Notes under the pieces: model-generated
Told to the model about the DNA's origin: nothing
The model's database searches: none
What the model saw: the letters and a program-made list of their open reading frames with translations, nothing else
Shown: positions 4,998 through 11,961 of the stretch, in pieces
Layout of the letters: every line of letters starts with the position of its first letter
Numbering within the stretch: position 1 is the first letter of the stretch
Translations under genes and position numbers: made by a program
Assembly (NCBI GenBank): GCA_021811315.1
Contig: JAJZPF010000001.1
Coordinates: forward strand, 1-64,000
Direction: 5' to 3'
DNA length: 64,000 nucleotides
Origin: a bacterium
GTDB taxonomy: Bacteria; Elusimicrobiota; Elusimicrobia; Elusimicrobiales; UBA9959

Positions 4998-6197
4998 CTA
5001 GTGGTGGTGCGGCTCGCAGGATTCCATGCCGAACAGGGGTTTGCCGTCGGCGAAGGGCGAGATGGAGCGGAGGCGCTCTATGATGGGCGGGAATTCTTTT
5101 ATTATATAGTCCACCTCTTCCTGGGTATTGTAGACGCTGAGGGAGAAGCGCACCGAGCCGTGGGCGTAGGTCTGGGGGACGGCCATGGACATGAGGACGT
5201 GGGAGGGCTCGAGGGAGCCGGAGGTGCAGGCTGAGCCGGAGGAGGCGCAGATGCCTTTTTCGCTTATCATCAGGAGGATGGACTCGCCTTCTATGTATTC
5301 GAAGCTGATATTGGTGGTGTTGGGGAGGCGGTTAGCGCCGCCGCCGTTCACGCGGGAATTCGGGATCTTCAGCAGGCCGGCCTCGAGGCGGTCCCGCAGG
5401 GCTTTCACATAAGTGTTCTCTTTTTCAAGATTGGCGCCGGCCAGTTCGGCGGCTTTGCCTATGCCGGCTATATAAGGGACGTTCTCGGTTCCGGCGCGGC
5501 GGCCGTGCTCCTGGTGGCCGCCCATCAGGAAAGGGGCGAAGCGGGAGCCTTTCTTGACGTAGAGTACGCCTATGCCCTTGGGGGCGTGGAGTTTATGGCC
5601 GGAGAGGGAAAGGAAGTCTATCTTGGCGTCCTTGAGGTTTATGGGCAGCTTGCCGACGGCCTGCACGGCGTCGGTGTGGAACAGGGCGCCTTTGGCGTGG
5701 GAGATGCGGGCGGCTTCTTCTACGGGGAAGATCACGCCGGTCTCGTTATTGGCCCACATGATGGAGACTATGGCTGTTTCGTGGGTGAGGGCGGCCTGGA
5801 GGTCGGCGAGGTTGAGCTGGCCGGCATTGTCTACGGGGAGATAGGTGACGCGGTAACCCTGGGTTTCGAGGAACTTGCAGACGTTGAGGACGGCGGGATG
5901 CTCGACCTTGGTGGTGATGATGTGTTTTTTATCGGGGAAGGCGCGGACGGCTGACCAGAGGGCGGTGGAGTCGGATTCGGTGCCGCAGCTGGTGAAGACT
6001 ATTTCTTCTGGGGCGGCGCCGAGGAGGGTGGCGACGCGCTGGCGGGCGAGGTCGAGGTATTTCTGGTTGGCGCCGCCGAAGAAGTGCATGCTGGAGGGGT
6101 TGCCGTAGAGGTCGTTGAAGAAGGGCTGCATTTCGGCGGCGACTTCGGGGGCGACGCGGCTGGTGGCGTTATTGTCGAAATAATAGACTTTTTCCAT
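4998..6197 (-). CDS. nifS: Cysteine desulfurase, NifS type
   Basis: This 399-aa PLP-dependent class V aminotransferase-fold enzyme takes sulfur from L-cysteine and hands it as a persulfide to the scaffold protein for Fe-S cluster building. The PLP-binding lysine is K202 in SLSGHKLHAPKG. The active-site loop Cys is C324 in SSGSACTSGS, the short-loop arrangement of group I NifS/IscS enzymes. The ATG at 6197 is preferred over an in-frame upstream start at 6281 because AGGAG sits eight bases before it and the family begins with VYYFDNNAT. nifU lies 190 bp upstream on the same strand. The protein ends in three histidines. Confidence 0.95.
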   Translation of the reverse strand: MEKVYYFDNNATSRVAPEVAAEMQPFFNDLYGNPSSMHFFGGANQKYLDLARQRVATLLGAAPEEIVFTSCGTESDSTALWSAVRAFPDKKHIITTKVEHPAVLNVCKFLETQGYRVTYLPVDNAGQLNLADLQAALTHETAIVSIMWANNETGVIFPVEEAARISHAKGALFHTDAVQAVGKLPINLKDAKIDFLSLSGHKLHAPKGIGVLYVKKGSRFAPFLMGGHQEHGRRAGTENVPYIAGIGKAAELAGANLEKENTYVKALRDRLEAGLLKIPNSRVNGGGANRLPNTTNISFEYIEGESILLMISEKGICASSGSACTSGSLEPSHVLMSMAVPQTYAHGSVRFSLSVYNTQEEVDYIIKEFPPIIERLRSISPFADGKPLFGMESCEPHHH

Positions 6198-6300
6198 ATG
6201 ATTTTCTCCTGAAGAACAGAGCCGCGAGATGCCCAGTCGGGGTGGCCACAGGGGCCGGAACGCAAAAACGTTGTCTCGCACACCGTGCTCGCAACTCCCG

Positions 6301-6387: not shown

Positions 6388-7221
6388 TTATTCCGCTTCT
6401 ATTTCTATCGCAGGATCAATTCGTTCCCTTAATTCTTTCTCTACTACGTTCTTTAAAGTGGCGCCGGAGGAGGGGCAGCCGTGGCACATGCCTAGGAAGC
6501 GGAGTTTGACTTTCTGGCCCTGGATGTCTACGAGCTCCATCCAGCCGCCGTCGGCTTTGAGCTTGGGGTTTATTTCTTCGGCGAGGACTTTTTCTATTAT
6601 TTTTATTTTTTCGACTACGGTCATTTTGTCGAATTTTTTATGTTCGGCTTCGGCCCAGTAGTCTTTAAGGAGTTTTTCTATTTCGCCGTGGCACTGGCGG
6701 CAGCCGCCGCCGGCTTTGGTGAAGTTGGTGACTTCTTCGATGGTGTGGAGGTTATTGAGCTTTATGGCTTTGAGGATGACGGAATCGGTGACGCTGAAGC
6801 ATTTGCAGACGATCTTTTCGGCCTGGCCGATGATGACTTTTTCGGCTTTGCCGCCGCGGTAGTTCTTTATTGCGGCTTCGAGGGCTTCCATGCCCATGAC
6901 GGAGCAGTGCATCTTCTCGCCGGGGAGGCCGCCGAGGTAGTCGGCTATCTGCTGGTTGGTGATCTTGGCGGCTTCGTCGAGGGTGAGGCCTTTTACCATC
7001 TCGGTAAGGGCGGAGGAGGAGGCGATGGCGCTGGCGCAGCCGAAGGTCTTGAACTTGGCGTCGGTGATCTTGTCGGAGGCTTTGTCTATCCTGAGGGTGA
7101 GCTTTAGGGCGTCGCCGCAGACTATGCTGCCGATCTCGCCGATGCCGTCGGGGTTCTCTATCTCCCCCACGTTCTTGGGGTTCTTGAAATGTTCGAAGAC
7201 TTTATCTGTATAGTTCCACAT
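6388..7221 (-). CDS. nifU: Fe-S cluster scaffold protein NifU (three-domain)
   Basis: This 277-aa protein has the full three-domain NifU layout. The N-terminal IscU-like scaffold has the cluster ligands C35, C62 and C106. The central BFD-like [2Fe-2S] domain has C139, C141, C174 and C177. The C-terminal Nfu domain has C246-x2-C249 (GMCHGCPSS). It assembles clusters using sulfur from NifS, encoded next. The ATG at 7221 (MWNYTDKVF) is chosen over one at 7257 because GAGGTAAT precedes it and homology begins there. No nitrogenase genes are in the window, so it probably serves general Fe-S assembly, including the radical SAM enzyme encoded upstream. Confidence 0.93.
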   Translation of the reverse strand: MWNYTDKVFEHFKNPKNVGEIENPDGIGEIGSIVCGDALKLTLRIDKASDKITDAKFKTFGCASAIASSSALTEMVKGLTLDEAAKITNQQIADYLGGLPGEKMHCSVMGMEALEAAIKNYRGGKAEKVIIGQAEKIVCKCFSVTDSVILKAIKLNNLHTIEEVTNFTKAGGGCRQCHGEIEKLLKDYWAEAEHKKFDKMTVVEKIKIIEKVLAEEINPKLKADGGWMELVDIQGQKVKLRFLGMCHGCPSSGATLKNVVEKELRERIDPAIEIEAE

Positions 7222-7296
7222 ATTACCTCGGTTGGCGTTTGCCGGTGAGAAAGTCACGGTCCAAAGAAATTGGAGTGACGATACCTATATATCTTA

Positions 7297-8334
7297 TTAA
7301 ATCCCGACTTTCTTTTCAACCGCGGGTTTGCCGTTCCTGGCCATAAGCGCGCGGGCGAGCCTGAGCGCGGACTCCACCACGCCCAGGGCCGCCCCGGGAG
7401 GGGTGTAATAGCCGCTGGTGCGCGTGGTGAGCTGGCGCACCACTATGATGTCCACTTCGCCCGACCGGCTGGACTCGTACAGGATATCCGTGCTGTTCAT
7501 CCCGAACAAAGCCTTCACGAAGTCGGAGACGCCGGAGCTTTCGGGCTGGACGGTCAGCTCTTCATACTTCGCAAGCAGGCCGGAGCCGGCCTTGGCGATC
7601 AGCACGCAGTACAGGTAAGGATAGTCCTTGCCCTGCACGCTGTTCACCGAGAGCTGGACCTGCAGGCCGTAGAAATCTTTGGGCGCCCCCACGAGCTTCA
7701 CCATCAGCCTGGCGTCCTCGGGAACTTTAGCGCCTTTATCCGTGGCCTCCAGGGCCAGCATCGGCTGCACCTGCACGTCGCTGGGGTCTTTCAGCGCCTC
7801 CATGACCTTCTCGAGCATGTTTATCTTTATTATCAGCCGGTCTTTTTTGAGATAGTCGCGCGTGCCTATGAACCACATCGGGAAGATCAGGACCGCGGCG
7901 TCCAGGCCGAAATAAAGCCAGGAGCCGTCCGGGAAAGACCACCTGTCGGCGGCCGCGATATAAGCGGTGGAGCAGATAACCCCGGCGGCAAGGAAGCCCG
8001 CCAGGCCCCGTATGCTGCTCCCGTCGAAAAGGTCCTCGTCCCACTTTTTCAGCTGGTCGGCCTTCAGCCGCACCTTGGCGTACTCGTCCGGGGTGACTTT
8101 TTCCCAGGTCTCTTCGCCGGTCAGCTTCGGAGCGGCCTCGTAGCCGGAATTTATCCCTATCAGCATCGCCGCGACCAGGGCCCATAAGCCGGGCCAGAAA
8201 CCGACGGTAAGCTGCAGGCCCAGGCCCAGGGTCAGAAGCAGCCCCACCAAAGTCATGCGCGCCCGGTACGGCAGGCCCTTGGCCAGCATGAATTTTATTT
8301 CCCCGTCTTTTTGCGGCGGCGGCAATATGCTCAT
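7297..8334 (-). CDS. Membrane protein of the CHxA/radical SAM operon
   Basis: This 345-aa protein is of no recognised family. Two hydrophobic segments lie at about residues 28-60 and two more at about 108-160. They are followed by a soluble C-terminal half of roughly 180 residues with mixed alpha/beta character. A charged loop between the membrane pairs includes GEETWEKVTPDEYAK. Its ATG overlaps the stop of the radical SAM gene in an ATGA arrangement at 8331-8334, so it is translationally coupled to the maturase. An earlier in-frame start would lie inside that gene and is less likely. It may be a membrane partner or exporter-like component of the same system. Confidence 0.65.
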   Translation of the reverse strand: MSILPPPQKDGEIKFMLAKGLPYRARMTLVGLLLTLGLGLQLTVGFWPGLWALVAAMLIGINSGYEAAPKLTGEETWEKVTPDEYAKVRLKADQLKKWDEDLFDGSSIRGLAGFLAAGVICSTAYIAAADRWSFPDGSWLYFGLDAAVLIFPMWFIGTRDYLKKDRLIIKINMLEKVMEALKDPSDVQVQPMLALEATDKGAKVPEDARLMVKLVGAPKDFYGLQVQLSVNSVQGKDYPYLYCVLIAKAGSGLLAKYEELTVQPESSGVSDFVKALFGMNSTDILYESSRSGEVDIIVVRQLTTRTSGYYTPPGAALGVVESALRLARALMARNGKPAVEKKVGI

Positions 8335-9680
8335 TCTATCCTCCCCATCGCGGCCTCGGCGGCCAGAAGTTCGGCGTAGCCCGTCTTTTCCCAGTAAAGC
8401 GGGCAGCCCCCGTTGCAGACCGCCAGGTACCGGCAGGCTTTGCATTTTTCGTGGGCGAAGCTTTTTCCCCTGAACCAGGCGAAGTCCTCGCGGGCCCAGA
8501 GCTTTTTAAAATTACCGCGCTCATGCAGGAGATTCCCCAACGGCTTCGGGTAGCTGGAGCAGGGCAGAACGTCGCCGTTGGGGGCGACGCTAAGGAGCCC
8601 GTCGCAGGCGGCGCAGCCTTTATTGCCCAGCCCGCGGGTTATCGGGTTGAAGATGCAGACTGGCGTGGGCGAATACCACATGAATTCCAGGCCGCGCTTT
8701 TCGGCCAGCTCTTTCAGTCTCTCGATCAGCGGCCCCGCCTCGGTATAAGAGACGAAGGTCTCGTCGAAATTCTTCCCCGCTGAGCCCACCGGCATCAGCA
8801 GGTTCATCGAGAACTTTTTCAGGCCAAGGCTTTTAACCAGGTCCAAAATGCCTTCGAGAGAATTTTTATTAAGGGCCGAGATAGTGGTATTGGTGTGCAC
8901 GCGTATCCCGGCTTTCATGATGTTCTCTATCCCGCGCACCGTGCGCCTGAAAGCGCCGGGGAAAGCGGCTATAGCGTCGTGCTCGGCCTCGTTCCCGGCC
9001 TCCACGCTGACCTGCGAGGAATCCAGGCCGGCGTTCTTGAGTTTTTGCACGGTCTCTTCTGTGGCGAGGGTCCCGTTCGTTATAAGGTTGGCCCACATCC
9101 CGAGGGACTTGGCGTGAGCCACCAGCTCCGGGATCTCCGGCCGGAGCAGCGGCTCCCCCCCTGTAAAGCTGACCGAGGGGACCTCGGCTTCTTCTTTTAT
9201 TATGCTCAGTATTTTTTTAAGATCCTCCACGGGGAGGTCGGGGTGCTCCTCGTCCTTGCGGCAGCCGCAGCCGGCGTAGCAGAACTTGCAGGCCAGGTTG
9301 CAGCGGTAGGTGACGGCGATCTCGCTCAGCACCGGGAGGCTGTTATGGCCGAGCGCGAATTCTTTCGTCTCCACGGCGAGGCGCTCTTCCCGCTCATCGT
9401 AGCAGCCTTTCAGCAGGGCCATCAGGTCGCGGAAGAAATAATACATGTCCAAAGAAATCTGTTCCCGCTGATCCTCCGGATATTTCTCCACCACCGAAAC
9501 GGCTTTGCCGCCGTCGAAGAGGAATTTCAGGAGCTTCAGCCCCTGCGGGTTGAGCTTATGGGTCTGGTTGGGGATCTTTATCAGGAGCGAGTCGGCGAGG
9601 CGCACGCGCACATAAGGCTTTATGCGCGCGGCATAACCGTCGATCCAATCCACCCGCTTAACCCACTCTCTTTTATCCAT
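8331..9680 (-). CDS. Radical SAM/SPASM enzyme with PqqD-like N-terminus
   Basis: This 449-aa enzyme is a peptide-modifying radical SAM protein. Residues 20-95 resemble a PqqD-like RiPP recognition element. The [4Fe-4S]-SAM site is C127-x3-C131-x2-C134 (RCNLACKFC), with further cysteines at 138 and 140, and the SAM-binding GGEP is at 174-177. The SPASM region carries C342, C356, C359, C374, C413, C416, C422 and C426, enough for two auxiliary clusters. The ATG at 9680 (MDKREW) has AGAGAGAAGAA upstream. The gene begins 50 bp after the gene for a protein with a CHxA-repeat tail and is coupled to a membrane-protein gene. The likely substrate is that tail; the chemistry is unknown. Confidence 0.88.
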   Translation of the reverse strand: MDKREWVKRVDWIDGYAARIKPYVRVRLADSLLIKIPNQTHKLNPQGLKLLKFLFDGGKAVSVVEKYPEDQREQISLDMYYFFRDLMALLKGCYDEREERLAVETKEFALGHNSLPVLSEIAVTYRCNLACKFCYAGCGCRKDEEHPDLPVEDLKKILSIIKEEAEVPSVSFTGGEPLLRPEIPELVAHAKSLGMWANLITNGTLATEETVQKLKNAGLDSSQVSVEAGNEAEHDAIAAFPGAFRRTVRGIENIMKAGIRVHTNTTISALNKNSLEGILDLVKSLGLKKFSMNLLMPVGSAGKNFDETFVSYTEAGPLIERLKELAEKRGLEFMWYSPTPVCIFNPITRGLGNKGCAACDGLLSVAPNGDVLPCSSYPKPLGNLLHERGNFKKLWAREDFAWFRGKSFAHEKCKACRYLAVCNGGCPLYWEKTGYAELLAAEAAMGRIE

Positions 9681-9730
9681 TTCTTCTCTCTTGATCTTCG
9701 ATTCCCGATTCCCGGCTCTCGATTTCTTAA

Positions 9731-11407
9731 TTAATGCCCGCTGCTCACGCAGGCCGAATGACAAGCCCCGTGGCAGGCGGAATGGCAGGCCGAGTGGCAA
9801 GCCGAATGGCAGGCGTCGTGGCAGGCCGAATGGCAGGCGTCGTGACAGGCGGAATTCGCGAAAGCTCCTTCATAGCAGGACTTGGAGCCGCGGAAAGAAT
9901 CGAAGCCGGCGCTCAGGTCTTTCGGCAGCGAAGCCGTGAGCCCGTCCCCCGCCTTAACGGCATTGTCGTAGTACGGGCTGTTCCGGTTGCCGTAATAATG
10001 CCGGTGGTAGCCGCCCCAGTAATAGCCCCTGTCGGTGTCCGTCTCCCGGTGGCCGTAGTTTTCCACTTCGTCCCTGTAATATTTTTTCGTCGCCTCCAGG
10101 TCGCAGTCCCAGAGCTTCTGCTCCAGCCCGGCGGTCAGGGTCTTCAGGGCGGATCCGGCGACGGCCTGGTCCAGGGTCCCGTCCGGCTTCATCGCCGAAA
10201 GCAGGGCCGATTCATAGGGGTCATTACTCGAGCTTATCCCGGGCAGGCGCTCGACGGTCAGCGGGGAATAGCTTACGACCTTGACCAGGCCTTTGCGCTC
10301 CATATTCGCGACCATCAGGCCGAGCATCTCGGCCAGCGGCAGCCCCATCACCACCCCCGCCTCCAGCGGGCTGAGGTTCTTGGCTATCTTGCCGGGCACG
10401 CGGAAGCTGCTCACCTGCGTTTTAGGCGGCGTCCAGTCCGTCGCCTCCCAGTTGATATTTGAAATGCCCGCCTGAGCCGTCAGCATCGCATTGTGCTTTA
10501 TGGTCATGATGAAGAACGGGACCACGACGAAGGCCGCGGCCAGGGCCAGGATAAGGAACATTGTCTCCCGCCTGCTGACCGGCAGCCCGGCGATCATGCT
10601 GGCCGGGAAATAGCGGTTCATATAAAATTTTTCTTCGGCGGGCAGGTACTTGGTGCGGGTCGGCGCGGCCTTTGTAAGGCTGCCGTAAGCCATGGTGTTC
10701 AGGTTAAAAACGGCGGCGTCCAGGTAAACCTGCACCTGGAAATGATAACGGCTTTCGAGAGCCTTGCGGAAGAACCTTACGCTGAAAATATCTTTGCCCG
10801 ACGTATTTTTTACGGTCGGATAGTCTATCATGTACCTCGCGTTCACGAACTTCTCGGTGAGGAAGCCCAGCTTCGCCAGGGCCTGCTCGTCCACGGCGGG
10901 GGAGGAAAGCTCGGCGGGGAAACGCACCACCAGCGCCTCGTGCTCAAGGGGATCGTCCCACTGTACCGGGGACCAGTTGAAGACCGCCAGGCGCTTGTCG
11001 CCGGACATGGTCTGCGTAAGGTTGCCCGAGGCCTGCAGGTCCGCGGCGTAGCGGAAGAAATAAGTGATCTCGCCGCTGGCAAAGGCCTCGCCGCCGGCCA
11101 GGACGATATCGTATTTCCTGTCGTTAAGTTTTTTTATTTCCAGCCCGTAGCGCTTGCCGGTATCGTCCAGCGCGTAGGCGCGCTCATAGTCGAACACCGG
11201 GTTTTCCTGGAAGCCCTCGAAGTAGAAGCCGTGCAGCTGCCCGCCCTGGCCGGTCCACCTGACGGCGTAGGAGACCTGCGCCTTGCCGTCCTTGTCCAGC
11301 ACGGCCTCGGTCTCGACCCAGTTCATTTTAAAGCCGCCGGCGAATGCCGCGCCCGGGGCGAGAACCAGGGCCAGCGCCGCAAAGACCTTCATCGCGTTCT
11401 TTTTCAT
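9731..11407 (-). CDS. DUF2207-like membrane protein with C-terminal CHxA repeat tail
   Basis: This 558-aa protein has a signal peptide (cleavage likely after AFA, residue 23) and an extracytoplasmic domain to about 275 resembling DUF2207 (YciQ-like). A membrane helix spans about 281-303. A cytoplasmic part follows with a winged-helix-like stretch (about 345-380) and a Tyr/His/Gly/Asn-rich linker. The last 38 residues hold nine cysteines at exact four-residue spacing, C521 to C553, forming eight Cys-His-x-Ala units (x is Ser, Asp or Gly). The ATG at 11407 overlaps the upstream stop and has GGGAGAAAG before it. The tail should face the cytosol, within reach of the radical SAM enzyme encoded next. 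The function is inferred from context. Confidence 0.8.
   Translation of the reverse strand: MKKNAMKVFAALALVLAPGAAFAGGFKMNWVETEAVLDKDGKAQVSYAVRWTGQGGQLHGFYFEGFQENPVFDYERAYALDDTGKRYGLEIKKLNDRKYDIVLAGGEAFASGEITYFFRYAADLQASGNLTQTMSGDKRLAVFNWSPVQWDDPLEHEALVVRFPAELSSPAVDEQALAKLGFLTEKFVNARYMIDYPTVKNTSGKDIFSVRFFRKALESRYHFQVQVYLDAAVFNLNTMAYGSLTKAAPTRTKYLPAEEKFYMNRYFPASMIAGLPVSRRETMFLILALAAAFVVVPFFIMTIKHNAMLTAQAGISNINWEATDWTPPKTQVSSFRVPGKIAKNLSPLEAGVVMGLPLAEMLGLMVANMERKGLVKVVSYSPLTVERLPGISSSNDPYESALLSAMKPDGTLDQAVAGSALKTLTAGLEQKLWDCDLEATKKYYRDEVENYGHRETDTDRGYYWGGYHRHYYGNRNSPYYDNAVKAGDGLTASLPKDLSAGFDSFRGSKSCYEGAFANSACHDACHSACHDACHSACHSACHSACHGACHSACVSSGH
9749..9847 (-). repeat. 12-bp tandem repeat coding for CHxA units
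   Basis: Cysteine codons recur every 12 bases from 9845-9847 down to 9749-9751, giving eight CHxA tetrapeptides and a final Cys. The repeat is in frame and at the 3' end of the DUF2207-like gene. Codons vary between units (for example TGC is constant but the x codon alternates AGC, GAC, GGC), so the peptide pattern appears selected rather than a recent slippage product. Confidence 0.9.
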
Positions 11408-11961
11408 CGTCTTTCTCCCGGTGTTATTAAAAATTCGTTTTTCAGTTCGCTCCGGTCCAGGGCCAGCGCCCACCACAGGCAAAGGCTGCCGAGCAGGAGC
11501 GCTATTATCCTGGCCACGTAAGCCGCCGTCCTGACCGAAGCGTTAAATTCCGGCGCAAGCGAGACCTCGCCGTAAACCAGCGGGCGCGGGATAGCGAGCC
11601 AGGGGTAGAGCAGGAGCAGCATGGCGGCCGCGCTCAGCAAATACAGCATCGCGACGGCGCCGCTCCGGGCCCAGTCCTTGCGGGCCCTGACGCCGAGGGC
11701 CAGGACGAAACCGGAAAGCCAGAACAAAAGCGAGAAGACGAAGACCGAGCGCATATTGCGGATCAGCAGGCCCGCCAGCGGCGGCATTTCCACCGGCACG
11801 GTGGCCCGCGCAAGCGCGAGGTAAAAAGCCGGGGTGGAGAAGACTTCGAGCAGCGTGAAAAGGTCGTAAGCGGCTTTGAGCGCCATTATCCCGCAAAGCG
11901 CCGCGGCCCCCAGCGCCAGCCCGGAAAGGCCCCGGGATTTTCCTTCAGGTAGCAGCTTCAT
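11404..11961 (-). CDS. Small membrane protein, first gene of the CHxA operon
   Basis: This 185-aa protein has four hydrophobic segments (about residues 14-35, 68-90, 100-122 and 145-165). The loop between segments 1 and 2 is periplasmic or cytoplasmic; this cannot be decided here. No family is recognised. Its stop overlaps the start of the CHxA-tail gene at 11404-11407 (ATGA), so it is coupled to that gene. No Shine-Dalgarno is visible; a perfect TATAAT lies only 11 bases before the ATG, suggesting a very short or absent leader. Confidence 0.6.
   Translation of the reverse strand: MKLLPEGKSRGLSGLALGAAALCGIMALKAAYDLFTLLEVFSTPAFYLALARATVPVEMPPLAGLLIRNMRSVFVFSLLFWLSGFVLALGVRARKDWARSGAVAMLYLLSAAAMLLLLYPWLAIPRPLVYGEVSLAPEFNASVRTAAYVARIIALLLGSLCLWWALALDRSELKNEFLITPGERR

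Follow-up and report, generated by a model that had tools for sequence, protein, structure and literature searches.

Radical S-adenosylmethionine (SAM) enzymes that mature peptides are mostly known from short, released peptides, which raises the question of what the same kind of enzyme does when it accompanies a membrane protein. The question is posed by a locus in the window analyzed here, a stretch of 64,000 nucleotides of contig JAJZPF010000001.1 from a bacterium of the Elusimicrobiota. Four open reading frames (ORFs) are tightly packed on the minus strand in the order P1-P2-P3-P4 with gaps of -4, 50, and -4 bases; their coordinates bear out the arrangement with 4-base overlaps and a 50-base gap that was described in an earlier note on this DNA. 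The membrane protein P2 ends in a tail of Cys-His-x-Ala (CHxA) units and P3 is a radical SAM/SPASM enzyme. It is quite probable that P2, P3, and P4 form a cassette for maturing a peptide tail tethered to the membrane, a reading in which we infer the identity of the substrate, the type of bond, and the role in the cell from sequence. The CHxA tail is the likely substrate of P3 because tail and enzyme are linked, because the enzyme carries a PqqD-like domain, and because parallel tail types exist. The features are as follows.

11404..11961, minus strand: P1, small membrane protein of 185 amino acids with four hydrophobic segments
9731..11407, minus strand: P2, DUF2207/TIGR04222-like membrane protein of 558 amino acids that bears the CHxA tail; proposed substrate
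11339..11407, minus strand: P2 residues 1-23, signal-peptide-like N-terminus (hydropathy, sequence)
10688..11338, minus strand: P2 residues 24-240, predicted exported beta-rich domain (model, Foldseek)
10505..10561, minus strand: P2 residues 283-301, sole strong transmembrane segment (model, hydropathy)
9743..9847, minus strand: P2 residues 521-555, tail of eight CHxA units and a final CVS, predicted to be cytoplasmic
8331..9680, minus strand: P3, radical SAM/SPASM enzyme of 449 amino acids (Pfam); proposed maturase
9417..9569, minus strand: PqqD-like N-terminal domain of P3, resembling a RiPP recognition element (RRE), aligned part about residues 38-88 (hhalign, Pfam)
9279..9302, minus strand: radical SAM motif CNLACKFC of P3 (C127, C131, C134), all three cysteines invariant in 31 of 31 aligned sequences
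8391..8657, minus strand: SPASM region of P3, C342 to W430 (alignment), with no conserved cysteine past C426
7297..8334, minus strand: P4, conserved membrane protein partner of 345 amino acids, fold unmatched

Whether homologues with the CHxA tail occur without the radical SAM gene was a check set in advance, and the link between tail and enzyme survived it. A search for P2 in 294 genomes of the window's phylum gave 22 matches, one of which (locus L030 in genome G188) was rejected as an artefact caused by a low-complexity CLSV repeat, leaving 21. P3 was found in 21 of the 294 genomes, and these are the same 21 (expectation value E up to 1e-60, a limit set to exclude other radical SAM enzymes, with five candidates scored per genome in most genomes). 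Among the 189 genomes that are at least 90% complete, P2 and P3 are each present in 17, and neither was found in twelve sampled genomes of the window's own genus. A scan of public genome contigs for P2 yielded 38 loci, in two sets referred to here as the home group (L031-L049) and the other group (L050-L068), with record titles that name Elusimicrobia, Anaerolineae (Chloroflexota), Cloacimonetes, Aminicenantes, Thermodesulfobacteriota, Bacteroidetes, Lentisphaerae/Verrucomicrobia, Pseudomonadota, and Gemmatimonadota. Not every title names a phylum, and phylum labels may be wrong because all but one of the loci are titled as metagenome bins; L050 and L063 carry differing labels and nearly the same P3, and L055 and L056 have the same tail and coordinates. 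The sole isolate is Desulfobulbus alkaliphilus DSM 24258 (L058), in whose phylum the cassette is rare, with P2 matches in two of 297 genomes, one being that of L058 and the other belonging to the sister system described below.

P3 follows P2 in 34 of the 38 loci and P4 follows P3 in 31; the contig ends within P2 in L047, L065, and L068 and inside P3 in L055, L056, and L060. In L051, P2 stands alone within a longer contig, and a P3-P4 pair is present elsewhere in the same genome. P3 was matched at E up to 1e-50 in nine of the 11 genomes behind twelve of the loci; the exceptions are G311 and G312, the latter being the genome of L055, where the contig end truncates P3. The maturase-substrate link drawn in the earlier note appears strongly indicated by this co-occurrence and linkage. 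Clustering of ORFs recovered the P2-P3-P4 trio in most loci, so that of the four-gene neighborhood proposed at first these three genes stand as a conserved cassette. P1 lies outside this core: a tblastn search (E up to 0.01) detected it in 13 of 19 loci in the home group but in no locus of the other 19, which rules it out as a core member. P1 has no Pfam match at E up to 1.

The tail itself is conserved to an unusual degree. In P2 of the window the CHxA units begin at C521, 525, 529, 533, 537, 541, 545, and 549 and are followed by C553 and VSSGH, in agreement with the eight-unit tail from C521 to C553 that had been read from the sequence; the eight units are encoded with mixed codons. In an alignment of 31 P2 sequences, all complete and mutually distinct (near-duplicates and genes that are cut or spread over two frames were excluded), the majority of the tail columns show no variation or a conservation of at least 90%. 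Seven or eight units are present in the open frame of 33 of the 38 loci; three loci are cut off, and the P2 gene is spread over two frames in L066 and likewise in L067, where the second frame holds the tail. Outside the home group (13 sequences) the proportions of non-synonymous (pN) and synonymous (pS) differences, computed for the tail over its last 26 codons, are 0.033 and 0.84 in the tail and 0.40 and 0.73 in the body of the protein; in the home group (17 sequences, without L048) they are 0.076 and 0.69 in the tail and 0.27 and 0.60 in the body. The conservation of the tail is due to selection on its amino acids and not to recent copying of repeat units: chance or recent copying is excluded because synonymous tail sites vary freely while the amino acids stay. 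The tail is near-unchanged across record titles of about nine phyla, and whole-protein identity to the window copy is 33-37% in the 13 aligned P2 sequences outside the home group.

P3 matches the Pfam families Radical_SAM (3.6e-29) and SPASM (8.2e-9). Pfam finds the Radical_SAM domain in 31 of 31 aligned P3 sequences, with invariant CxxxCxxC cysteines, and in the SPASM region C342, C356, C374, C413, C416, C422, and C426 are likewise invariant in all 31. The SPASM motif holds one cysteine more than this set. Past C426 no cysteine column is conserved among the 31 sequences and only a few have scattered C-terminal cysteines, so that the "full SPASM cysteines" of the earlier note had to be given up. 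The PqqD-like N-terminus was confirmed: hhalign aligned the first 112 residues of P3 with 24 PqqD domains (PF05402 matches from relatives of the window's genome) at 93% probability, compared with at most 2.6% for 20 column-shuffled controls, 1.4% for a stretch of P2, and 0.3% for a stretch of P4. The Pfam PqqD model recognizes eight of 31 P3 homologues (best E 0.0096, with a limit of 1), and scans of sister enzymes, given below, agree. Against the PDB, the P3 profile matches SkfB best (2.5e-30) and PqqE second (4.3e-27). The top NCBIfam scores of P3 are those of the heme b synthase AhbD (157 bits) and NirJ2 (154 bits), followed by TIGR04053 and PqqE (127 bits); among the best 25 of 100 NCBIfam models, none reaches its own cut-off on P3.

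A related pairing of tail and enzyme was found in four loci from 297 genomes searched (as a fifth match, genome G302 gave L120 with its CHxA enzyme). A P2-related protein whose tail, CACACACAGCACACAGGGR, is of a CACA type (also given as CACACACAGCACACA, and as the His-free CACACACA) lies directly before a radical SAM/SPASM enzyme in L112:3523-6678 (plus strand), L117:1441-4200 (minus), L118:1-2859 (plus), and L119:2-2862 (plus), and the tail is invariant. A profile of the P2 alignment matches these proteins with E from 1.9e-17 to 4.3e-8, mainly past the membrane segment; they have no Pfam match in L112 and L117 and no NCBIfam match in L112, where a long hydrophobic stretch is visible in the sequence. 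Two of the enzymes were scanned for PqqD with Pfam, giving 28.6 bits in L112, above the cut-off of 23.4, and 23.1 bits, just below it, in L117. In a tree whose root serves for drawing only, the four sister enzymes group with support of 100/99 and the 31 CHxA enzymes with 84/97, below the tool's mark for firm support. A P4 profile found no P4 homologue beside the sister loci. Since the sister loci have both an invariant tail and an enzyme clade of their own, tail and enzyme seem to belong together. Downstream of the CACA-type enzyme, L112:6671-7780 (plus) encodes a protein with 4Fe-4S and CCG domains.

The pairing in L113 points the same way: at L113:293-2250 (minus) a TIGR04222 protein with a Cys/Gly tail of the GCSGGC type adjoins a radical SAM/SPASM enzyme whose closest model is ACGX (156 of 400 bits). 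TIGR04222 tails are thus linked not only to multinuclear non-heme iron-dependent oxidative enzymes (MNIO). At L121:1429-3307 (plus), in a genome of the window's phylum, a TIGR04222 protein that has a Cys/Ser/Gly tail is encoded next to an MNIO (PF05114, 219 bits). L113 and L121 were the only matches above the cut-off in the TIGR04222 genome searches, and the weaker matches L114, L115, and L122-L124 have no comparable tail in the ORFs inspected.

P2 consists of a signal-like N-terminus, an exported beta-rich domain, one strong transmembrane segment, and a part without further strong hydrophobic segments that leads to the tail. From hydropathy and the structural model, the C-terminal part and the tail are predicted to lie on the cytoplasmic side; a borderline hydrophobic stretch near residue 350 in some homologues falls within a predicted soluble helical part. 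The exported domain is modeled with a predicted local distance difference test (pLDDT) mostly above 85, in a whole-protein model with a predicted template modeling score (pTM) of 0.48. The predicted fold resembles the N-domains of M1 aminopeptidases and OST1/ribophorin I (Foldseek E 6.5e-8 and up, with a TM-score by query length of only 0.22-0.27), a likeness from which no function for P2 follows. The first description of P2 as DUF2207-like finds little support in the window protein taken by itself (PF09972, E 0.025, 15.2 bits against a Pfam cut-off of 24.4) and more across the family, where the DUF2207 N-terminal model matches 20 of 31 aligned P2 sequences at E up to 1 (best 1e-8). TIGR04222, with a curated cut-off of 43 bits, matches 10 of the 31 at E up to 1 (best 4.5e-8). 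Scanned singly, P2 of L058 and L054 has no NCBIfam match, TIGR04222 included, at E up to 0.01, and none of the 21 P2-bearing genomes of the window's phylum is among the four of 294 that match TIGR04222. Some 40 residues ahead of the tail, at residues 463-482 or so (about 9962-10021 of the window, minus strand), P2 is locally rich in Tyr, Trp, and His, and an aromatic and His-rich stretch is found at the matching place in most homologues. In L050, a short ORF upstream of the true P2 (4149-4415, plus) clusters with the P2 family.

The genes around the trio vary. Beyond P2, P3, and P4, family F11 is the one further family shared beyond the home group (present in L031 and, outside that group, in L051 and L053). 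Pfam scans of ten neighbor genes outside the home group gave matches for seven, all of different kinds, and none for three; no MNIO was among these ten neighbors of P2 loci, the remaining neighbors having been clustered only. No peptidase or exporter is common to the loci, and clustering of neighbor ORFs found no other shared candidate substrate beside P3. In single loci, a tricorn-type peptidase follows P4 (L066), an M48 peptidase precedes P2 (L058), and a heavy-metal P-type ATPase with a heavy-metal-associated (HMA) domain follows P4 (L054:4635-6734, plus, a Bacteroidetes bin). In the window, P4 is followed on the same strand by genes read from sequence as nifS (4998-6281) and nifU (6388-7257); the putative nifS family is present in 11 and the putative nifU family in seven home-group loci, and neither was seen in the loci outside that group.

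How such a cassette might work can be proposed as follows. P2 would be exported N-terminus first and anchored by its one transmembrane helix, which would leave the C-terminal part and the CHxA tail in the cytoplasm. The PqqD-like domain of P3 would dock on P2, and the enzyme would use its radical SAM cluster and auxiliary Fe-S clusters to modify the cysteines of the tail in succession. P4 is inherited together with P3 and would probably be a membrane docking or quaternary partner; it has no match in the PDB at E up to 0.001 and only weak Pfam matches (best 0.011). The likeliest modification, at the level of a guess, would be intramolecular thioethers to nearby residues. According to the accessible text of one source, radical SAM enzymes join Cys by a thioether to the alpha, beta, or gamma carbon of an acceptor residue (PMC8326336), and in the accessible text of another the data on a RumC variant are consistent with a Cys-Ala thioether (PMC6779426). 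Ala is a plausible acceptor here because it adjoins nearly every Cys in both tail types, preceding every Cys of the CHxA tail, usually except the first, and following every Cys of the CACA tail. Because the loci share no peptidase or exporter, the modified tail would most likely remain part of P2 and may act there as a metal or redox site or as a rigid cross-linked stalk.

Several observations weigh against the maturation of the tail by P3. L048:5956-7656 (plus) encodes a complete P2 with only three CHxA units, which could be real or reflect a repeat collapsed in assembly. L051 shows that adjacency of P2 and P3 is not required, and no enzyme match as good as E 1e-50 was found in G311, where, however, a contig end truncates P2. 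The second auxiliary cluster of P3 would be either incomplete or otherwise ligated, because the last SPASM cysteine is not conserved, and the best NCBIfam scores of P3 span heme enzymes as well as peptide enzymes. The peptidases in L066 and L058 may release the tail. In the model of P2 the tail region has a pLDDT below 50, so that its shape is not given by the model. Finally, an invariant Cys/His tail would equally be expected of a plain metal-binding site.

This last point leads to the view that the tail is an unmodified cytoplasmic segment binding Cu, Zn, Fe, or an Fe-S cluster and that P3 acts on another molecule or another part of P2. The alternation of Cys and His at fixed spacing and the HMA-type ATPase of L054 would fit it, yet we consider it unlikely: the PqqD-like domain of P3 is typical of peptide maturases, there is no other shared candidate substrate beside P3, and the sister protein with the His-free tail still keeps a PqqD-fused radical SAM enzyme. 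The roles could also be reversed, with P2 as a helper whose thiol-rich tail holds or delivers Fe-S clusters for P3 as its client, as the recurring putative nifU and nifS genes after P4 might suggest. That these families are not seen outside the home group, and that the exported domain would be left unexplained, make such an arm highly improbable; moreover, we know of no other radical SAM enzyme that needs one. Least credible is a covalent heme site, with CX3CH read in the repeat and P3 as a heme-tailoring enzyme. The AhbD and NirJ2 scores that speak for it are far under the cut-offs of 500 bits, PqqE follows at 127 bits, and the CX3CH motifs overlap; the tail is also predicted to be cytoplasmic, where to our knowledge c-type heme is not attached.

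Returning to the tail as a substrate of P3, the systems described point to enzyme-finished membrane protein tails as a little-explored class. It is evenly balanced whether they constitute a class of peptide cofactors that are built by enzymes and stay permanently tethered to the membrane. In such a class, dedicated radical SAM enzymes would finish the Cys-repeat tails (CHSA, CACA, Cys/Gly) of P2-type and TIGR04222 proteins, and the CHSA form would be kept near letter-for-letter in about nine phyla because the modified tail itself serves as a fixed functional site. The finished tail probably has a general membrane job, because the Cys-His tail is near-unchanged over very distant bacteria. Thanks to the repeat, modifications could be counted by mass, and D. 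alkaliphilus offers an isolate with the cassette. With the sister and MNIO-linked systems, different chemistries can be compared on the same kind of scaffold.

Among open-licence papers, a literature search turned up neither a CHxA tail nor a DUF2207-type protein in a cassette with a radical SAM enzyme, and the nearest known systems share single features with the one described here. ACGX (TIGR04340, rSAM_ACGX) and TIGR04117 (Syntroph_Cxxx) combine, judging by the model names, a Cys at every fourth residue with a radical SAM/SPASM maturase, as found here. Their targets, which include the ACGX repeat itself, are free peptides. P3 scores far below the cut-off of TIGR04340 (99.8 of 400 bits) and the window's P2 far below that of TIGR04117 (10.9 of 50 bits, E 0.36), a model that matches 23 of 31 aligned P2 sequences at E up to 1 (best 0.061). 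The sactipeptide and ranthipeptide synthases SkfB and CteB, as well as PqqD/PqqE, resemble P3 in having an RRE-like N-terminus, a radical SAM core, and a SPASM or twitch domain; their substrates are short leader peptides (in part from the accessible text of PMC8326336), whereas here the partner is a membrane protein and the loci have no peptidase in common. In the His-Xaa-Ser (Hxs) system, as far as the available text goes, a repeat motif is thought to be matured by radical SAM enzymes, as proposed for CHxA, but the repeat is a different one and two enzymes, HxsB and HxsC, take part (PMC9062424); the HxsC4 model gives P3 99 of 500 bits. The published parallel on the side of the substrate is that of the MNIO-linked TIGR04222 membrane proteins with Cys/Gly/Ser tails (PMC12452194), in the accessible text of which the term radical SAM occurs in the reference list only. 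As far as that text describes it, the system shares with ours a membrane protein, a Cys-containing C-terminal tail, and an adjoining peptide-modifying metalloenzyme; that system pairs an MNIO with a Ser/Gly-rich tail of predicted periplasmic location, whereas here a radical SAM/SPASM enzyme accompanies a CHxA tail that is predicted to be cytoplasmic.

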